Shown here piece by piece: positions 54,023 to 64,000 of a stretch of DNA of 64,000 nt (position 1 is the first letter of the stretch; every line of letters starts with the position of its first letter). The notes under the pieces were generated by a model. It was given only the letters and a program-made list of their open reading frames with translations, was not told where the DNA came from and made no database searches. Source of the stretch: Serratia liquefaciens (GTDB taxonomy: Bacteria > Pseudomonadota > Gammaproteobacteria > Enterobacterales > Enterobacteriaceae); the NCBI GenBank assembly GCA_012719855.1, contig JAAXZN010000028.1, positions 62,001-126,000 of the forward strand. Direction: 5' to 3'. The position numbers and the translations under genes are program-made.

Positions 54023-54056
54023 CGTTTTCAGCATGCTGAAACATCCGGGAAAAACC

Positions 54057-54899
54057 ATGAAGATCGCAAAAATACTTAATAATAACGTGGTGATTACGCT
54101 GGACGACCGTCAGGAAGAGACGGTGGTTATGGGAAAAGGCATCGGCTTTAAAAAGAAGGCCGGCGATCTGCTGGACGAAAATCTGATCGAGAAGGTCTTC
54201 ACCCTTAACGGCAGCGAAATGGCTGAGCGCTTTAAAACGCTGCTGTCGGAGATCCCCCTGGCCTGCGTGACCACGGCCGACAAGATCATCACCCTCGCCC
54301 GCCAGCGCTTGCCGGGCAAGCTGCATAACATCGTTTATATCACGCTGACCGATCACATCCACTTTGCGCTGCAGCGCCATGCCCAGGGGCTGGACATCAA
54401 AAACGTGCTGCTGTGGGAAATCAAGAAGCTCTACCCGGCCGAATTTGCCGTCGGGCTGGAGGCACTGACGCTGATCGCCGAACGGCTCGGCACCACGCTG
54501 CCGGAGGACGAAGCCGGGTTTATCGCCCTGCATCTGGTTAACGCCCAGTTGAATGATGAAATGCACAACACCCTGCATATCACTCGCGTCATGCAGGAAA
54601 TCCTGAATATCGTCAAATACCACTTCCGTTTTGACTACAACGAAGAAGCCCTGAGCTATCACCGCTTTATCACTCACCTGAAGTTCTTCGCCCAGCGTCT
54701 GCTGGGTAAAAACTATGTCGACAGCGACGACGACTCACTCTATCTGGTGGTGAAAGAAAAGTACCCTGACTCCTTTGCCTGCGCAGGCAAGATCAACCAG
54801 CACATCGAGAAAAACTATCAACATCAGCTCACCCGCGAAGAAATGATGTTTCTGACCATTCATATCGAACGGGTACGCAGCGAGAGCGAAGTGAAATAG
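54057..54899 (+). CDS. bglG: BglG/LicT-type transcriptional antiterminator
   Basis: RNA-binding antiterminator of beta-glucoside PTS operons. MKIAKILNNNVVITLDD at 54057 opens the CAT RNA-binding domain (1-55), followed by PRD1 (conserved His100 in LTDH and His159 in ALHLV) and PRD2 (His207 in FITHLKF, and FLTIHIERV). 280 residues, full length. It has its own RAT/terminator leader, yet no PTS permease or glucosidase follows: the next genes are a convergent toxin-antitoxin pair. Hence an orphan, autoregulated or acting on a distant operon. Confidence 0.9.
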   Translation: MKIAKILNNNVVITLDDRQEETVVMGKGIGFKKKAGDLLDENLIEKVFTLNGSEMAERFKTLLSEIPLACVTTADKIITLARQRLPGKLHNIVYITLTDHIHFALQRHAQGLDIKNVLLWEIKKLYPAEFAVGLEALTLIAERLGTTLPEDEAGFIALHLVNAQLNDEMHNTLHITRVMQEILNIVKYHFRFDYNEEALSYHRFITHLKFFAQRLLGKNYVDSDDDSLYLVVKEKYPDSFACAGKINQHIEKNYQHQLTREEMMFLTIHIERVRSESEVK

Positions 54900-54901
54900 A
54901 T

Positions 54902-55288
54902 CTAGCGCCGGGCGTCAAACACCCGGATACCATACTGCGGGAAAGCGGCATCGGCGGAAACCAGCGTCAGCCCTTCGGCCTGCGCCTGGGCGATCAACAT
55001 GCGATCAAAAGGATCCTGATGATGTGGCGGCAATTGGCCCGCCTGCTGACCATGAAAGGCGGCCATCGGCAACGGCAGAAAATCTTCGGCCTCAATGACC
55101 TCGAAAATGTCCTCCGGCAGTGCCAGCTTGCCCAACGCCCGCTTAATCGAAATCTCCCAAATGCTGGCCGCGCTGACGTACACCACATTACCGGGATCGG
55201 CGATCTGCCTTCTGGCGTTCTCCCCCAGGCTGGCGTCATCGATCAGCCACCACAGCAACGCATGGGTATCCAGCAGCAGACGTTTCAT
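54902..55288 (-). CDS. vapC: PIN-domain toxin, VapC family
   Basis: Predicted ribonuclease toxin of a type II toxin-antitoxin system, 128 residues. Acidic PIN residues are visible: Asp7 in LLLDTHALLWWL, Glu in SIWEISIK, Asp in DPFDRMLIAQA and in SADAAF. Start overlaps the antitoxin stop as ATGA. It ends two bases from the bglG stop, convergent. The specific RNA target cannot be told. Confidence 0.88.
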   Translation of the reverse strand: MKRLLLDTHALLWWLIDDASLGENARRQIADPGNVVYVSAASIWEISIKRALGKLALPEDIFEVIEAEDFLPLPMAAFHGQQAGQLPPHHQDPFDRMLIAQAQAEGLTLVSADAAFPQYGIRVFDARR

Positions 55289-56529: not shown

Positions 56530-56740
56530 GATTTTTCTCCTCAATGCACAACAACATTGCTACAGCCTAATGTAACCGGCTTTCGGGATCACCCCATTAA
56601 CGCCGAGTGTGACGGCGATGGCAATTTCCGCATCAGAACCGCACCGGCTGCCGCTTATTAATTAGCCATCGGGTACACTGGATTTTATCAGTTAACCTGT
56701 TGATAACATTTTTACCCATCATAAAATTCGGAGAGCAGCG

Positions 56741-57481
56741 ATGAAACCTGCCATATTGATCGTCGACGACGATCCCGCTATCTGTGATCTGCTTTGTGAC
56801 GTACTCAATGAGCACGTGTTTACCGTACATGCCTGCCACCGGGGAAGCGAGGCACTGGCGTTACTCAATCAGCAACCGGATATTGCGCTGGTGCTGCTTG
56901 ATCTGATCCTGCCGGATACCAATGGCCTGTTGGTGTTACAGCAGATCCACCGTCTGCGCCCGGATCTGCCGGTGGTGATGCTGACCGGTCTCGGCGCCGA
57001 ATCCGACGTGGTGGTCGGCCTGGAAATGGGCGCCGACGACTACATCGCCAAACCCTTTAATCCTCGCGTGGTGGTCGCTCGCGCCAAGGCGGTTTTGCGC
57101 CGTACCGGTGCGCTGGCGCTGGAACCTGCCGCTGTCGGCCAGACCAGAGCGGAAGGCTGGCAGTTTAACGGCTGGTGTCTGGACACCAACCGCTGCACGC
57201 TGCACAACCCTCAGCGCCAGGCTGTCGATCTGACCCAGGGCGAGTACGGTTTGTTGCTGGCGCTGGTACAACATGCGCGTAAAGTACTGACCCGCGATCG
57301 CCTGCTGGAACTGACCCACGGCGAAACTCTGGAGGTCTTCGATCGCACTATCGACGTGCTGATCATGCGACTGCGCCGCAAGATCGAAATCAATCCGCAC
57401 CAGCCCGAACTGATCCGCACTATTCGCGGGCTGGGTTACGTCTTTGCCGCCGACGTCAGCCAACCGGTGGCTGCCGCCTGA
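56741..57481 (+). CDS. OmpR/PhoB-type response regulator
   Basis: Two-component regulator of 246 residues: receiver with VDDD (9-11 acidic), phospho-acceptor Asp54 in LLDLILPD, MLTGLG and Lys in DYIAKPFNPRVVVARAK; then a winged-helix domain ending RTIDVLIMRLRRKIE...IRTIRGLGYVFA. GGAGAG precedes the ATG. No kinase gene adjoins it; the likely partner begins at 63785 beyond the sugar operon. Its 3' end overlaps that of the sugar kinase by 26 bases on the opposite strand. TorR-like in general, but the ligand is unknown. Confidence 0.88.
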   Translation: MKPAILIVDDDPAICDLLCDVLNEHVFTVHACHRGSEALALLNQQPDIALVLLDLILPDTNGLLVLQQIHRLRPDLPVVMLTGLGAESDVVVGLEMGADDYIAKPFNPRVVVARAKAVLRRTGALALEPAAVGQTRAEGWQFNGWCLDTNRCTLHNPQRQAVDLTQGEYGLLLALVQHARKVLTRDRLLELTHGETLEVFDRTIDVLIMRLRRKIEINPHQPELIRTIRGLGYVFAADVSQPVAAA

Positions 57482-58469
57482 TAAAATCCTGCAGTTCAGG
57501 CAGTGGCCGAGCGCCGTCGATAGCATTGGCGCACAGTAGGTTGAAACGCGCACAGGCATGCGCCAGCTGCAGGGTCTCCACCAAAGGCCAGTCTTCATGG
57601 CTGGCGTACAGCACGCCGGCGCAGAACGCATCACCGGCGCCGACGCTGCCCACGATTTCAGTTTCCCTCACCCGCCACGAGGGTTGCCAACGCGCTTCGC
57701 CACCGCTCTCCAGCCCGTAGGCCCCTTCCGGACAGTGGATCACCACCCGCCGCCGCACACCGGCCTGCAATAATTGTTCTGCGGCCTGCGCCATCAGTGA
57801 CTGCTGTAACGAGCCATTAGCCGTACGCAGCGCCAGTCCGGTAAACTCACCGGCTTCCAGCTCGTTGATCACCAGATAATCCAGCCAGCGCAGCGCCGGC
57901 AACACCAAAGGCCGATAGCGTGGATCGCCCTGGCGCGACACCAGATCCAACGAGGTTTGGTAACCGCGCTGCTGCATTTGTGCCAGCAGGCGTGCGCTAC
58001 GGGTGCCGAACTCCTGGTCCGGACAATCCAGGCTGTCGAGCAGCAGCAGATAGCCCAGGTGGAAAATTTTATGGCTGCTGTGCAGCGCGTCAAAATCGCC
58101 GAGGTCCAACAACCGATTCGCGCCCGGCGCATGGAAAAAGGTCCGTTGCCCACCCGGCTCGGTCATCACCTGCGACATCGAGGTCATTGCCGTTTCGCTG
58201 CGTCGCACCCGGCCGCTGTCGACTTGGTGCTGCGCCAGCATTTGCAAAATATAGTCACCATCGGCATCGCAGCCGATCAGCCCAAGCGCCGCCAGCGGCA
58301 ACCCGGTTTCCATCCGTGCCAGCGTCAGCAATACATTAAGCGGCGCACCGCCAGTAGCACGCTGGCTATGCTCAATCTCCACCAGCCAGCCCGGCTGAGG
58401 CCAATGCGCAATTTGATGGACATGATCCACCAGCATGTTACCGGCAGAAACAATGCCGCGCCGGATCAT
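57456..58469 (-). CDS. PfkB-family carbohydrate kinase
   Basis: Ribokinase-fold sugar kinase of 337 residues. Sugar-binding GG at 40-41 (ATGGAPLNV), a FHLGYL segment, and the catalytic GSVGAGDAF with Asp280. ATG at 58469 overlaps the aldolase stop as TGATG; GTG one codon earlier is also possible. Last gene of the operon. Next to a class II aldolase and an aldose isomerase, it probably phosphorylates the ketose before cleavage; whether at C1 or C5/C6 cannot be told from sequence. Confidence 0.85.
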   Translation of the reverse strand: MIRRGIVSAGNMLVDHVHQIAHWPQPGWLVEIEHSQRATGGAPLNVLLTLARMETGLPLAALGLIGCDADGDYILQMLAQHQVDSGRVRRSETAMTSMSQVMTEPGGQRTFFHAPGANRLLDLGDFDALHSSHKIFHLGYLLLLDSLDCPDQEFGTRSARLLAQMQQRGYQTSLDLVSRQGDPRYRPLVLPALRWLDYLVINELEAGEFTGLALRTANGSLQQSLMAQAAEQLLQAGVRRRVVIHCPEGAYGLESGGEARWQPSWRVRETEIVGSVGAGDAFCAGVLYASHEDWPLVETLQLAHACARFNLLCANAIDGARPLPELQDFIRRQPPVG

Positions 58470-59329
58470 CACAACCGCCCGGCGCTGCCGAAAATATGCA
58501 TCTGCTGCTGCACCACTTCGCTGATCGACCGTTCCACCGCCAACAGCACTTCGGCAAACTCATCATAAATCGCGTGACGCTGCGTCATCCGCTGTTCAAT
58601 TGCCCCCAGTGCCGCTTGCGACATGCCGGTATAGAAGTTGATTTTGTGAATGCCCAGGCTGATTGCCCGCTTGAAGTCGGCATCGCTGATGCCGGAACCA
58701 CCGTGCAGCACCAAAGGGATGCCAGCCTGCTGCTGGATAGCCGCCAGACGTTCGAAATCGAGCTTGGGCTCGCCCTTGTATTTGCCGTGCGCGTTGCCGA
58801 TCGCCACCGCCAGCGCATCGATGCCGGTCAATTCGACAAACTCGCGCGCCCGCTGCGGGTCGGTAAATTTATTGCTGTCGGCCTCGCCATACAGAGCACC
58901 GCCTTCGTCACCGCCGACGGCACCCAGCTCGGCCTCCACCGAGACGCCCACCGCATGGCACATGCGCACCACTTCCTGCGTTTGGCGCACATTTTCTTCG
59001 TAACTCAGGCCGGAACCGTCGAACATCACCGAGCTGAATCCCAGCCGCAATGCCTGCACCACCGCCTCAAAATGCAGACCGTGATCGAGGTTCAACACCA
59101 CCGGAATGTCGTGCTGCGCCGCCTCACTTTTGATCGCCGCGACCAAAGACTCCAGCGAGACGTACTTAAAGTGGACTTCGGCAATATTGATGATAAAGGG
59201 CGATCGCGCGGCCTGCGCGGCGGCAAACAGCGCGCGCAGAAAGTGGCTGTCGAGCACGTTGAACGCGCCAAGCGCATAGCCGTGTTGACGCGCGTGCGAT
59301 AGCCCCTGTGCCAGTGAAATCAATGCCAT
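58469..59329 (-). CDS. Class II ketose-(bis)phosphate aldolase
   Basis: Zinc-dependent aldolase of the fructose/tagatose-bisphosphate family, 286 residues. Catalytic Asp82 and zinc His83 in NLDHG, His181 in GNAHG, His209 in LHGGSG, the acidic loop VEAELG with GGDEGG, and NFYTG for phosphate binding. Overlaps the kinase by one base and follows the isomerase by 11 bases. Substrate likely the phosphorylated ketose from the neighbouring kinase, giving dihydroxyacetone phosphate plus an aldehyde (inference). Confidence 0.88.
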   Translation of the reverse strand: MALISLAQGLSHARQHGYALGAFNVLDSHFLRALFAAAQAARSPFIINIAEVHFKYVSLESLVAAIKSEAAQHDIPVVLNLDHGLHFEAVVQALRLGFSSVMFDGSGLSYEENVRQTQEVVRMCHAVGVSVEAELGAVGGDEGGALYGEADSNKFTDPQRAREFVELTGIDALAVAIGNAHGKYKGEPKLDFERLAAIQQQAGIPLVLHGGSGISDADFKRAISLGIHKINFYTGMSQAALGAIEQRMTQRHAIYDEFAEVLLAVERSISEVVQQQMHIFGSAGRL

Positions 59330-59340
59330 GGTGCATCTCC

Positions 59341-60027
59341 TTAATCGATAAAGCGCAAGTATTCGTTACACAGCAACCACTGGGGCGGCTGATCCTCTTC
59401 GATTTGGCTAAAGCGGCTGAGCGGCGTCAGGAAGCGGTTATCGTTGTCGTCGTCATTCACCGTAGAGACCTCCCCCACCAGCACGTCGCCGAAACCTTCT
59501 TCGCCCCAAAAGCTGTGATAGATCCCCGGCGTCAGGCAGATGCTTTCCCCCGGCGCCAGCCGCAGGCGCGAACCGGCGGCATGGGTCTGTCGGCAACCGT
59601 CCAGGGTCACGCTCACCGGGCTATCGGCCAGCCCTTCCTGCGGATCGGCGTTATGCAGCTCGACGATCAGGTTGCCGCCACCGCGGTTGATGATGTCTTC
59701 CCGCTTGCGCCAGTGAAAATGCATCGGCGTCACCTGCGCTTCACGGCAATGCATTATTTTCTCCGCATAGCATTTGGCATAAGGTCGACCGCCGGGCGAA
59801 CCGTTTCGCAACGTGAACAGCGTGAGCCCCTTGTGAGCAAAATCATCGCCGCCGAACGCCGTGACGTCCCAACCCAACTTCAGGTCGAATACCTCCTGCC
59901 ACGGCTGGCGATCGAGCTGACGCCAGACCGGCAGGCTAAAGTGGGCAAAGGGCGGCAGATGGACGTCGAAGCGGGCAAAAAAATGCTGGGTTTGTTGCAG
60001 AGTCTGGTTCACGGCGGAACGGTTCAT
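59341..60027 (-). CDS. D-lyxose ketol-isomerase
   Basis: Cupin metalloenzyme interconverting D-lyxose and D-xylulose (also D-mannose and D-fructose in characterised homologues). 228 residues. The metal ligands known for the E. coli O157 enzyme are at the same numbers: His103, His105, Glu110 (in MHFHWRKRED) and His171 (GIYHSFW). Closely similar to that enzyme along its length. Lies between the binding-protein gene and the aldolase in the sugar operon. Confidence 0.93.
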   Translation of the reverse strand: MNRSAVNQTLQQTQHFFARFDVHLPPFAHFSLPVWRQLDRQPWQEVFDLKLGWDVTAFGGDDFAHKGLTLFTLRNGSPGGRPYAKCYAEKIMHCREAQVTPMHFHWRKREDIINRGGGNLIVELHNADPQEGLADSPVSVTLDGCRQTHAAGSRLRLAPGESICLTPGIYHSFWGEEGFGDVLVGEVSTVNDDDNDNRFLTPLSRFSQIEEDQPPQWLLCNEYLRFID

Positions 60028-60089
60028 ATCGCCTCCGGAAGTGGGGATGAAATGAGGGGCCTGGCGTAGCAGACCCCGCCGATAACAGG

Positions 60090-61034
60090 TTATTTCACCG
60101 TCCAGCCTTTGTAGCTGCCAATATTGTTTTTATCGATCATGGTGACCGGGATCAGCACCGGACCGGTTGGTGCGGGTTTACCCTGCAGAATTTCGTAACC
60201 GATCTCGACCGCTTTGGCCGCCATCACCTGCGGATCCTGTGCCGGTGTCGCCACAAACAGCGATTTCCCGCCGCGCTTGAGCGCCTCTTCGCCGTCCGGC
60301 GATCCGTCTACGCCAACGATAAAGAATTCGCTGCGCTGCGCCTGCTTGGCTGCCAGATCGGCACCGATCGCCGTAGGATCGTTAATCGCGAATACGCCGT
60401 CGATCTTCGGATTGGCCGCCAACAGCGCGGTCATGATCTCCAGCCCGCCTTCGCGGCTGCCCTTGGCGTTCTGGTTATAGGACAGCAGCTTGATCTCCGG
60501 GTGTTTCTTCAGTTCGGTCATGCAGCCTTCCACCCGGTTCTGTACCGCGGACACCGGTGGGCCATTGATGATCACCACGTTGCCTTTCTCTTTCAGGCGA
60601 TCGCTGATGTATTTACAGGCCATGGCGCCGGCCTGGGTGTTGTCCGAGGTGATGGTGGCATCGGCACCTTCCGCCGCCACGTCCACCGCCACCACCACGA
60701 TGCCGGCGTCTTTGGCGCGTTTTACCGCCGGGCCGATCCCTTTGGAATCTGCGGCGTTCAGGATGATCATATCGACCTTGGCGGCGATAAAGTTATCGAT
60801 CTGCGCCACCTGCTGACCGAGATCATAGCCGCTCGACACCAGCGTCACGTTAACCTTGTCACCGGCCAGTTCGCGCGCTTTCAGTTCCGCACCCTTGGTG
60901 ATCTGCACAAAGAACGGGTTGGCCAAATCGCCCACCGTCACCCCAATCGATTTCAATTCTTTCGCCTGCACCAACGAAGCGCTGCCGAGTGCGGCGGTAA
61001 CCAGCAAAGCGGTAATCAATGGCTTGAAACGCAT
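60090..61034 (-). CDS. Periplasmic sugar-binding protein (RbsB/AlsB type)
   Basis: Substrate-binding component of a CUT2 sugar ABC importer, 314 residues. Signal peptide about 1-24 (ending SLVQAKE), then SIGVTVGDLANPFF, AADSKGIGP, TSDNTQAGAMACKYI and GVDGSPDGEEAL, the ligand-pocket segments of the ribose-binding family. Bound sugar unknown; context suggests D-lyxose or another pentose or hexose. Comes after the permease with a 66-base gap. Confidence 0.9.
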   Translation of the reverse strand: MRFKPLITALLVTAALGSASLVQAKELKSIGVTVGDLANPFFVQITKGAELKARELAGDKVNVTLVSSGYDLGQQVAQIDNFIAAKVDMIILNAADSKGIGPAVKRAKDAGIVVVAVDVAAEGADATITSDNTQAGAMACKYISDRLKEKGNVVIINGPPVSAVQNRVEGCMTELKKHPEIKLLSYNQNAKGSREGGLEIMTALLAANPKIDGVFAINDPTAIGADLAAKQAQRSEFFIVGVDGSPDGEEALKRGGKSLFVATPAQDPQVMAAKAVEIGYEILQGKPAPTGPVLIPVTMIDKNNIGSYKGWTVK

Positions 61035-61100
61035 AGTGTTTTCCCCATTATTTTCTGAGATACGAAAAACCTGCCCCGGTGGGCGTCGGTGACGGATAAA

Positions 61101-62126
61101 TCAATGTTGGTAATTACGGGTGCGATACTTATCAATCAGCACCGCTATGATGATCACCGCCCCTTTGATCACCAGTTGCCAGAAGTAAGAGACGCCCATC
61201 AACGTCATGCCGTTGTTCAGGGTGGCGATAATCAACGCCCCTACCAACGTGCCGGTAATGGTACCGATGCCGCCGACGAAGCTGGTGCCTCCGAGAATGA
61301 CTGCGGCGATCGCATCCAGCTCATAGCCCATGCCAAGGTTACCGTTGGCGCTGTACAGCCGCGAGGCGCTCATCACTCCGCCCAACCCGGACAGCAGGCC
61401 GCTCATGCCATAGACAAACAGCAGCACGGCACCGACCTTGATCCCGGTCAGGCGCGCCGCCTGCATGTTGCCGCCTACCGCGTAGATATGAACCCCCAGC
61501 GTCGTGCGGCGCAGAATGAACCAGCACACTGCAATTACCGCAAAGGCGATAATCACCAACCAGGGGATAGGCCCCAGGTAAGCGTTGCCGATCCATTCAA
61601 AACTGATATTGGAATTGATGATGGTGGTGCCGTCCGCCAACAGATAAGCGGCACCGCGCAGTGCGGTGTAGGTACCGAGGGTGACGATAAACGGCGGCAG
61701 GCCAGCGTAGGCCACCAGAAAACCATTAAACAGCCCCATCCCCAAACCGGCCAACAGCGCCAGCGGGATCGACATTCCAGCCATGCCAGGCATCAGTGAC
61801 ACCGCCATCGCTACCACCGCGGTAGTGCCCAGCATCGAACCGACCGAAAGATCGATGCCGCCGGTCAGGATGATGAAGGTCATGCCCGCCGCCAACACGA
61901 TGTTGATCGACGCCTGCCGGGCGATATTCAGCAGATTGGCATCGGTAAAGAAATTCGGGGCAACAAAGCCGAAAACTGCGACGATCAGGATCAATATCGG
62001 CAAGATACCGACGGTTTGCATCATATCGCCCAACAGTGCCCGTTTCAGCGTCGGATTTTTTGCGCCTGGCGGCAATGGATTCGAAGTCATGGTCGGCTCC
62101 TTGAGCGTAGGGATGGAATTATTCAT
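61101..62126 (-). CDS. Sugar ABC transporter permease (RbsC type)
   Basis: CUT2 inner-membrane permease, 341 residues with about ten helices; the motif GINAI-like loop reads [29 protein letters not shown], which contacts the ATPase. ATG at 62126 overlaps the ATPase stop as ATGA; a second Met twelve codons later (MTSNPLPPG) has GGAGC nearby and could be used instead. Confidence 0.9.
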
Positions 62127-63643
62127 GCGGTAGTCGCCTGCGGTTGGGCGGCGTCAACGCCGGTGGCCAGCGTCATGATATTTTCCTGGCTGATCTCATC
62201 GCCGCTCAGTTCCCCGACGATGCTGCCTTCGTGCATCACGTAGACCCGGTCGCTCATGCCGACCACCTCAGGCAGTTCGCTGGAGATCATCAGGATCGCC
62301 ACGCCTTGCTGCGCCATCTGGCTCATGATGCGATAAATCTCGCTTTTGGCCCCCACGTCCACGCCGCGTGTCGGTTCATCGAGGATCAGGATCCGTGGGC
62401 CAATGGCTACCCAGCGTGAAATCAGCAGCTTTTGCTGATTACCGCCGGACAGACCGCCGGCACGCACCTGAGCATGTGGCACGCGGATATTCAGCAGGCC
62501 GATAGCGTCGCTGGAAATGCGCTGCGCCTTGCGGCGATTGAGCAGTCCATAGCGGCCGTCGCGTTCCAGCGTCGCCATCACGATGTTTTCATGCGCGGCC
62601 AGATCGAGAAACAACCCCTGCTCCTTGCGGTTTTCAGTGAGAAAGCCGATGCCCAGAGCAATGGCATCGCGCGGCGAGTGGATACTGGCCAGTTTGCCGT
62701 CGATCTCCACCGTACCGCCGCTGGACTTGCGCACGCCGAAAATCAGCTGCGCCAGTTCGGAGCGACCGGCGCCCACCAATCCGGCAAGGCCGACAATTTC
62801 ACCGGCGCAAACCTGAAGGCTGACCGGCTTCACCTTTTTGCCGTCAGTCAGGCCGCGCAGCGTCAGCCGAGGTTCCCCCACCGGGATGCCCTGTTCCTTA
62901 TTGAACAAGTCGCTCAGCGGTCGCCCCACCATCATGCGCACCAACTCGCTGGCGGACAGCTTGTCGCGCATCAGGCTGCCAACATACTGACCGTCGCGCA
63001 GCACGCTGACGCGATCCGACAGCTCGTACACCTCCGCCATGCGGTGGCTGATATAAATGATTGCCATGCCTTCATCGCGCAGCCGTTTGATCAGCTCGAA
63101 CAGTCGATGCGTCTCGCGTGAAGAAAGCGCCGCCGTAGGTTCGTCCATCACCAGAATGCGGCTGTTACGGTGCAGCGCACGGGCGATTTCCACCTGTTGC
63201 TGCTCGGCGATGGTTAATTTCATCACGCGATCGCCGGCGCTGAACTGCGCCCCCAAACGATTGATCACCTTCTGCGCTTCCAGCAACATCTGTCCGCGTT
63301 TCACCAGGCCGCCACGTTGGATCTCGCTACCCAGAAAAATGTTTTCCGCCACCGTCAGATTCGGGGCCAAATTCATTTCCTGGTAAATCAGCGTGATACC
63401 TGCCGCCAGAGCATCTTTTGGCCCTTTGATGGCGAACGGCTGCCCATCGATAATAATTTCCCCGCTGCTGGCGATATAAGCGCCGGCCAATATTTTCATC
63501 AAGGTACTTTTACCCGCGCCGTTTTCACCCATTAGCGCGTGGATCTCACCGCGATACACCGTCAGGTTGACGCCCTTGAGCGCATAGAACTGACCAAAAC
63601 TCTTGGCGATGTTGTGCATTTCCAGAATCGGGGTCGCGCTCAT
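62123..63643 (-). CDS. Sugar ABC transporter ATPase (RbsA type)
   Basis: Double-cassette ATPase of a CUT2 importer, 506 residues. First cassette: Walker [13 protein letters not shown], signature-like [15 protein letters not shown], Walker [13 protein letters not shown]. Second cassette is degenerate at Walker A ([12 protein letters not shown]), as usual in this family, with [14 protein letters not shown] and [15 protein letters not shown] 63643 is preferred because AGAGG lies seven bases before it; an ATG two codons earlier is too close. First gene of the operon. Confidence 0.9.
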
Positions 63644-63784
63644 CGTCATACCTCTGGTTGCGGTTCGGATGGCATGCAGTTAACCACGCATAAATAAATG
63701 CAAAATGTCAGCGCCCGTTCATCTTTGTCATATTGTTAATGGGACGGGGATTTATACTGCGAACAGTCAGTTACGGGGGATTCG
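63644..63784. promoter_or_regulatory. Divergent control region of the sugar operon and sensor gene
   Basis: About 140 bases between the ATPase start and the sensor start. It holds CAGTTAACC at 63677-63685, a nine-base word also found upstream of the response regulator (56689-56697), and a direct repeat TTCATCT / GTCATAT near 63718-63732 that could be a regulator site. TATACT at 63753-63758 may be the -10 of the sensor gene, but no -35 fits well. Confidence 0.4.
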
Positions 63785-64000
63785 ATGCGCAGACTGCCTT
63801 TCCTTGCCGGCGCGCGTGGGCGCCTGTTGATGTTCAACCTGCTGGTGGTGGCGGTGACGCTGATGGTCAGCGGCGTGGCGATCTTCGGTTTCTACCATGC
63901 GGGCAAGCTGCAGGAACAGATGCAGGCGCAAACCCTGGCAGAAATGAACGGCAGCATGGCGTTGAGCCGGGATACCTCCAACGTGGCGACCGCGGCTATT
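63785..64000 (+). CDS. Membrane sensor protein, probable histidine kinase, 5' part
   Basis: Only 72 residues are inside the window. ATG 63785 follows GGGGGA. The start is MRRLPFLAGARGRLLMFN, a membrane helix about 15-37 follows, then an alpha-helical periplasmic-type stretch (AGKLQEQMQAQTLAEMNGSM). This fits the N-terminus of a TorS-like or similar sensor kinase, but the kinase domains lie outside. Rightward like the orphan response regulator at 56741 and likely its partner. Confidence 0.6.
   Translation, partial: MRRLPFLAGARGRLLMFNLLVVAVTLMVSGVAIFGFYHAGKLQEQMQAQTLAEMNGSMALSRDTSNVATAAI

Follow-up and report, generated by a model that had tools for sequence, protein, structure and literature searches.

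In Escherichia coli O157:H7 EDL933, the hybrid histidine kinase (HK) LmvK and the response regulator (RR) LmvR flank the sugar operon lmuKAIZYX (Yang et al. 2023, PMC10128022), on island OI167, which is said to occupy the place of the allose genes. Control by the pair rests on quantitative PCR, electrophoretic mobility shift assays, DNase I footprinting and mutants: the operon and lmvR, not lmvK, are induced by mannose and lyxose, without lmvK or lmvR the operon is expressed at a lower level on mannose, and LmvR protects positions -62 to -41 of the lmuX promoter, with the direct repeat ATATGA-N3-ATATGA (PMC10128022). Growth on lyxose is reported to be impaired in isomerase or transporter deletions, with the kinase and aldolase dispensable; growth on mannose is unaffected, which the authors put down to ManA. 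The same source reports fructokinase activity for LmuK and virulence targets of LmvK/LmvR, and draws phosphotransfer via an unknown Hpt protein (PMC10128022). Serratia does not occur in the main text of that paper, and a literature search for D-lyxose isomerase with Serratia and operon gave no matches. Here we analyze a 64,000-nucleotide stretch of Serratia liquefaciens DNA (the window; bases 62001–126000 of the 168,730-base contig JAAXZN010000028.1 in a 5.46-Mb genome), and propose that the locus at its right end is an orthologue of LmvK/LmvR-lmuKAIZYX whose pair activates the operon as in EDL933, with a probability of about 0.93. The system itself is already in print and the Serratia copy is a further member; the additions made here are its spread, the conservation of its operator, its retention together with the transporter, a PAS-domain difference between kinases, and a concrete hypothesis of sugar sensing.

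Two further systems invite comparison. In TorT/TorS/TorR, which responds to trimethylamine N-oxide, the sensor is likewise a hybrid kinase, its large, helical periplasmic domain ties for the best fold in the comparison with a modelled orthologue below, the regulator is OmpR-type, and TorS carries a further Hpt domain; the putative partner in Serratia, in contrast to TorT, is the binding protein of an ABC transporter, and the interaction is putative. The layout and targets of ChvE/VirA/VirG from Agrobacterium differ from those of the LmvK/LmvR system. Shared with it are a hybrid kinase with a C-terminal receiver, a DNA-binding partner regulator and a sugar signal delivered via ChvE (PMC4705274). 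The Serratia kinase scores 231.7 against a cut-off of 647 with the VirA-like model, and the regulator 169.5 against 344 with the VirG model; other models score higher for both.

The Serratia lmv-lmu locus

The genes of the locus are as follows, with identities to the EDL933 counterparts.

56741..57481, + strand: LmvR orthologue, OmpR-type response regulator (Pfam Response_reg and Trans_reg_C; 72%), phospho-acceptor D54
57456..58472, - strand: LmuK orthologue, PfkB sugar kinase (69%)
58469..59329, - strand: LmuA orthologue, class II ketose-bisphosphate aldolase (NCBIfam NF005284, 555 bits, cut-off 406; 82%)
59341..60027, - strand: LmuI orthologue, D-lyxose/D-mannose isomerase (NCBIfam NF051472, 438 bits, cut-off 350; 72%)
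60090..61034, - strand: LmuZ orthologue, RbsB-type periplasmic sugar-binding protein (Pfam Peripla_BP_4; 88%)
61101..62126, - strand: LmuY orthologue, ABC permease (Pfam BPD_transp_2; 86%)
62123..63649, - strand: LmuX orthologue, sugar ABC ATPase with two nucleotide-binding domains (Pfam ABC_tran, two stretches; 82%)
63785..64000, + strand: LmvK orthologue, hybrid histidine kinase (first 72 codons in the window; identified in the parent contig)

Each of the seven complete genes is an open frame at the expected coordinates and belongs to the expected family. RR and HK lie on the same strand and bracket the oppositely transcribed ATPase-permease-binding protein-isomerase-aldolase-kinase operon, in which the lmuX orthologue is the first gene and the 3′ end of the lmuK orthologue overlaps that of the RR gene. 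An earlier note, made from the sequence of the window, had described a rightward OmpR-type regulator and sensor enclosing a leftward six-gene sugar operon that lacks LacI, AraC or DeoR regulators, and open frames, Pfam and NCBIfam assignments and the parent contig bear this out: Pfam finds no regulator of these types in the run of ten genes that begins with mak and ends with rdgC. The note had asked whether the protein starting at 63785 is a kinase, and whether it has a regulator of its own beside it. Read past 64000 in the parent contig, the gene ends at the window-equivalent position 66397 and encodes 870 residues with HAMP, PAS_7, HisKA, HATPase and C-terminal receiver domains, so that the sensor is a hybrid kinase; since rdgC follows directly, no regulator gene comes after it.

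The EDL933 locus contains the same eight genes in the same order and orientation, and all eight Serratia proteins are orthologous to their EDL933 counterparts at 59–88% identity, the sensor kinase with 59% in its N-terminal and 68% in its C-terminal half. The operator repeat and its position, and the phosphorylated His and Asp sites, are also shared. The two loci differ in their flanks (mak and rdgC in Serratia, yjcS and yjdP in EDL933), in one operator mismatch, and in the kinase, which in EDL933 (756 residues) lacks the PAS_7 domain present in Serratia. The proposal of the earlier note that the pair controls the operon thus gains support, having been shown by experiment for an orthologue that matches in genes, order, phospho-sites and operator (PMC10128022); by analogy, the Serratia pair would activate its lmu operon.

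A conserved operator upstream of the transporter genes

Three regulatory elements were located in the window.

63719..63733, - strand: ATATGA-CAA-AGATGA, the direct repeat in the window that best matches the published one; predicted LmvR operator
63706..63711, - strand: CTGACA, a -35-like block in the operon promoter (7 bp downstream of the operator)
56607..56621, + strand: GTGTGACGGCGATGG element upstream of the RR gene, candidate second LmvR site from a related-pattern count

The operator match, ATATGACAAAGATGA, has one mismatch to the EDL933 operator (ATATGA-CAA-ATATGA, as read in the EDL933 locus). To place it in context we used a scan for the sensor, which listed at least 80 loci (more carriers exist); 68 named loci were drawn from this listing, and counts of the module omit two paralogous loci (L080, L081) and 12 weak ones (L150–L153, L155–L162). 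Of 66 named enterobacterial loci, 64 carry the operator within two mismatches, and 55 within one, in the 135-base stretch that precedes the ATPase gene; L145 and L148, which have no ATPase gene in the stretch, were left out. First-order Markov resamples of the same stretches gave 22/1320 and 3/1320, respectively. The two exceptions are L087, with three mismatches, and L142, where a one-mismatch match sits further upstream. When the 66 loci, the Serratia contig and E. coli VE-T9 are aligned on the operator, TATGACAA is present in 68/68 and ATGAA likewise, bar single exceptions, followed by the largely conserved block CTGACATTTTGCATTTA. The aligned loci are related, and the alignment therefore shows constraint, not 68 independent cases. 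From this conservation and the published promoter of the orthologue (PMC10128022), we infer that CTGACA is the -35 element of the operon. Upstream of the RR gene, the related pattern occurs with at most four mismatches in 33 of 63 loci and in 40 of 1260 shuffles; because the pattern was picked from the same data, this is only suggestive of an LmvR site at the RR promoter.

Co-occurrence and spread of the pair

We searched 148 relatives, the source genome included, with cuts of E ≤ 1e-60 for the RR and E below 1e-130 for the HK, the latter chosen after the list was seen. The earlier note had staked its proposal on co-conservation of the regulator with the operon. Both proteins have orthologues in one identical set of 24 genomes, 13 from the genus and 11 from other genera of the family, and in no genome outside it; three of the copies (G030, G055, G081) are broken or truncated. 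A further 15 genomes that match the kinase core only (E ≤ 1e-30) were not taken as carriers. The binding protein is present in 23 of the 24 carriers, and a single further genome has a 49% paralogue of it; the isomerase is present in 19 carriers and nowhere else among the 148. RR and HK thus follow the transporter more closely than the isomerase. Significance values would be inflated by relatedness, and therefore only counts are given.

That RR and HK are unrelated neighbours, with the operon run by another regulator, is very improbable. It is true that about 6.3 kb separates the two genes and that the operon is on the other strand, but their identical distribution, the conserved operator and the published genetics of the orthologue (PMC10128022) all contradict such a reading and argue for control of the operon by the pair.

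The closest named relative of the sensor is that of S. proteamaculans (95% identity). Of 5426 complete E. coli genomes, 401 have the transporter, 401 the regulator and 401 the kinase. Carriers among the 40 matches listed per search are mostly O157:H7, with O145, O55:H7 and O157:H16 and some of unstated serotype whose sources are pig, goat, horse and vegetable; E. coli VE-T9 (L082, 3640–5899) has the whole operon and a sensor kinase gene annotated as frameshifted. In 369 genomes drawn evenly from the class, the binding protein is matched at E ≤ 1e-80 in the source genome only. The sensor gave ten matches in the same set, the source genome alone over the full length; the other nine, confined to model positions 242–362 (the second transmembrane (TM) helix and HAMP), were not counted. 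A control system reported for E. coli O157 thus extends through Enterobacterales to many genera, Serratia, Pantoea, Enterobacter and Buttiauxella among them, and across the order it is most simply seen as a sugar-uptake switch.

Gene content and insertion site

All eight genes are present in 43 of the 68 named loci. The kinase and aldolase are absent from ten, and five are reduced to regulator, binding protein, permease, ATPase and sensor kinase; in one locus of this five-gene type (L101) the gap contains a further frame of 358 residues. A kinase remnant is kept in one locus, from a Sodalis symbiont. The regulator is absent from the stretch in six loci; all five searchable genomes among these have it (71–78% identity), and the coordinates suggest that some of these genes, if on the same contig, may lie just outside the stretch. 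No binding protein was found in L142, a decayed locus; L145 is a contig end, and L148 consists of a regulator and a truncated sensor kinase only. The binding-protein gene is linked with the kinase in 65 of the 68 loci. Since loci exist that keep sensor, regulator and transporter without the enzymes, the enzymes are dispensable to the module, and only rarely are the transporter and its binding protein missing.

The mak and rdgC genes are adjacent in 12 of the 13 module-free Serratia genomes with rdgC (mak was not found in the thirteenth, G020), and mak was accordingly rejected as a part of the module. The sensor kinase adjoins rdgC in 14 carriers, and mak adjoins the regulator in all 13 of these that were read on the other side. 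Outside the Serratia group the flanks vary in many loci, and therefore the module moved, or was gained and lost, as a block.

Several loci have unusual neighbours. In Entomohabitans (L074, L148) the interval from regulator to kinase yielded no transporter gene, and the match to the kinase starts only near residue 297, so that the periplasmic part is missing from it. In L077 (29–2469, genome G029) a sugar permease-like frame (40% identical to the Serratia permease) and a ROK-kinase-like frame adjoin the kinase; by eye they resemble allose genes. In L081 (6974–9508, genome G051) two aldolase-like frames adjoin a second isomerase (48% identity). L080 (6915–12874, genome G058) is a paralogous sugar ABC locus (binding protein 49%, aldolase 34%), where no frame matches the two-component pair.

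Kinase architecture, phosphotransfer and sugar perception

The LmvK orthologue is organized as TM-helical sensor-TM-HAMP-PAS-HisKA-HATPase-REC (REC, receiver), the helical sensor being taken from a model of an orthologue and the two membrane helices, which enclose a periplasmic stretch of ~270 residues, being read by eye from the sequence. The H-box His is H509 and the receiver Asp is D794; the corresponding residues of EDL933 LmvK, H410 and D692, agree with those published (PMC10128022). The alignment of the EDL933 kinase skips Serratia residues 380–478, the PAS segment, which by a span criterion is present in 46 (two of them partial genes) and absent in 22 of the 68 named loci. Because PAS_7 is found in all four distant kinases scanned (two from Albitalea, and those of Burkholderia arboris and B. 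stagnalis), domain presence would place the loss of PAS in that part of the family to which Enterobacter, Citrobacter and E. coli belong.

How the phosphoryl group reaches the regulator can be envisaged in two ways. VirG is bound by the VirA receiver, which governs its activation and has been proposed to recruit it (PMC4705274), and by analogy the C-terminal receiver of LmvK may recruit or gate LmvR without a separate Hpt; we put the odds of this at about even. The H-D-H-D phosphorelay through an unlinked Hpt protein that the EDL933 authors propose (PMC10128022) appears rather doubtful. It has in its favour the published model and a receiver whose D794 and K843 are invariant in ten aligned kinases, but VirA, a hybrid kinase likewise paired with an OmpR-type regulator, has a receiver reported to recruit VirG (PMC4705274), and Pfam finds no Hpt domain inside the LmvK orthologue, free Hpt proteins in the genome or loci not having been searched for. 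Direct transfer with a gating receiver seems to us somewhat more likely than the relay.

A similar choice concerns the sugar. The modelled sensor domain of the orthologue is all-helical, with TorS as tied-best solved fold in the structural comparison; a sequence search of the domain against solved structures gave one chance-level match, so that information came from the fold comparison only, and a literature search for binding-protein sensors with TorT gave none. In the arrangement we favour, the helical domain would read the sugar via the binding protein LmuZ and not directly, which we hold at even chances, and LmuZ is a candidate co-sensor. The alternative, that the kinase senses mannose or lyxose directly in this domain and the binding protein serves transport only, is a possibility to be taken seriously, if tentatively. 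Three observations, none of which shows a contact, speak against direct sensing: TorS, the kinase that works with TorT, is one of the two top folds; loci that have lost all three enzyme genes still combine HK with the binding protein; and distant relatives adjoin binding-protein genes of unrelated types. Together, co-retention, the TorS-like fold and the neighbours of the distant relatives make presentation of the sugar by the binding protein, while unproven, plausible.

Seven distant kinase-regulator pairs adjoin other ABC binding-protein genes. Ten plasmid records were found and six opened. In five of these the kinase has an RR and a binding-protein gene as neighbours; the sixth, L213, is a partial match without them. 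Four weak sensor matches were checked for neighbours, and L150 and L151 are hybrid kinase-regulator pairs. In L155 and L160 a regulator stands beside kinase-length frames of only 443 and 467 residues with no match to reference ABC proteins, and these two loci therefore lend a wider pattern no support. On balance we consider it possible, with a chance slightly short of even, that LmvK reads the state of LmuZ as one branch of a wider proteobacterial set of hybrid kinase and OmpR-type pairs, each matched to the binding protein of the neighbouring importer; the importers would be of ribose, maltose, phosphonate and iron types. If so, the sensor diversifies together with its ABC importer, and lineages without the enzyme genes keep the module as a pure uptake-and-sense unit. 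Lineages that retain sensor, regulator and transporter after enzyme loss are a natural experiment, in which perception of the sugar directly or via the binding protein becomes testable.

Conservation of LmuZ was tried as evidence for contact with the sensor and given little weight, the margin being small. Between Serratia and E. coli VE-T9, LmuZ is 87.9% identical, the permease 86.5% and the ATPase 81.6%; the control values for Serratia against K-12, given as binding protein (permease, ATPase), are 85.2% (88.4, 89.0) for MglB, 80.6% (83.0, 74.7) for XylF and 82.4% (89.7, 84.6) for RbsB, so that LmuZ alone of the four is more conserved than its own permease.

Neighbouring genes

Further from the operon, a small protein at 54902–55288 (- strand) resembles a PIN-domain (VapC-type) toxin and the frame at 54033–54899 (+ strand) looks like a BglG-type antiterminator, both by eye only. 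Past rdgC in L006 (12966–16401, - strand) lies a second large hybrid-kinase-like frame of 923 residues, overlapping a 225-residue frame that by eye resembles a LuxR-type regulator; it is unrelated to the lmu operon.
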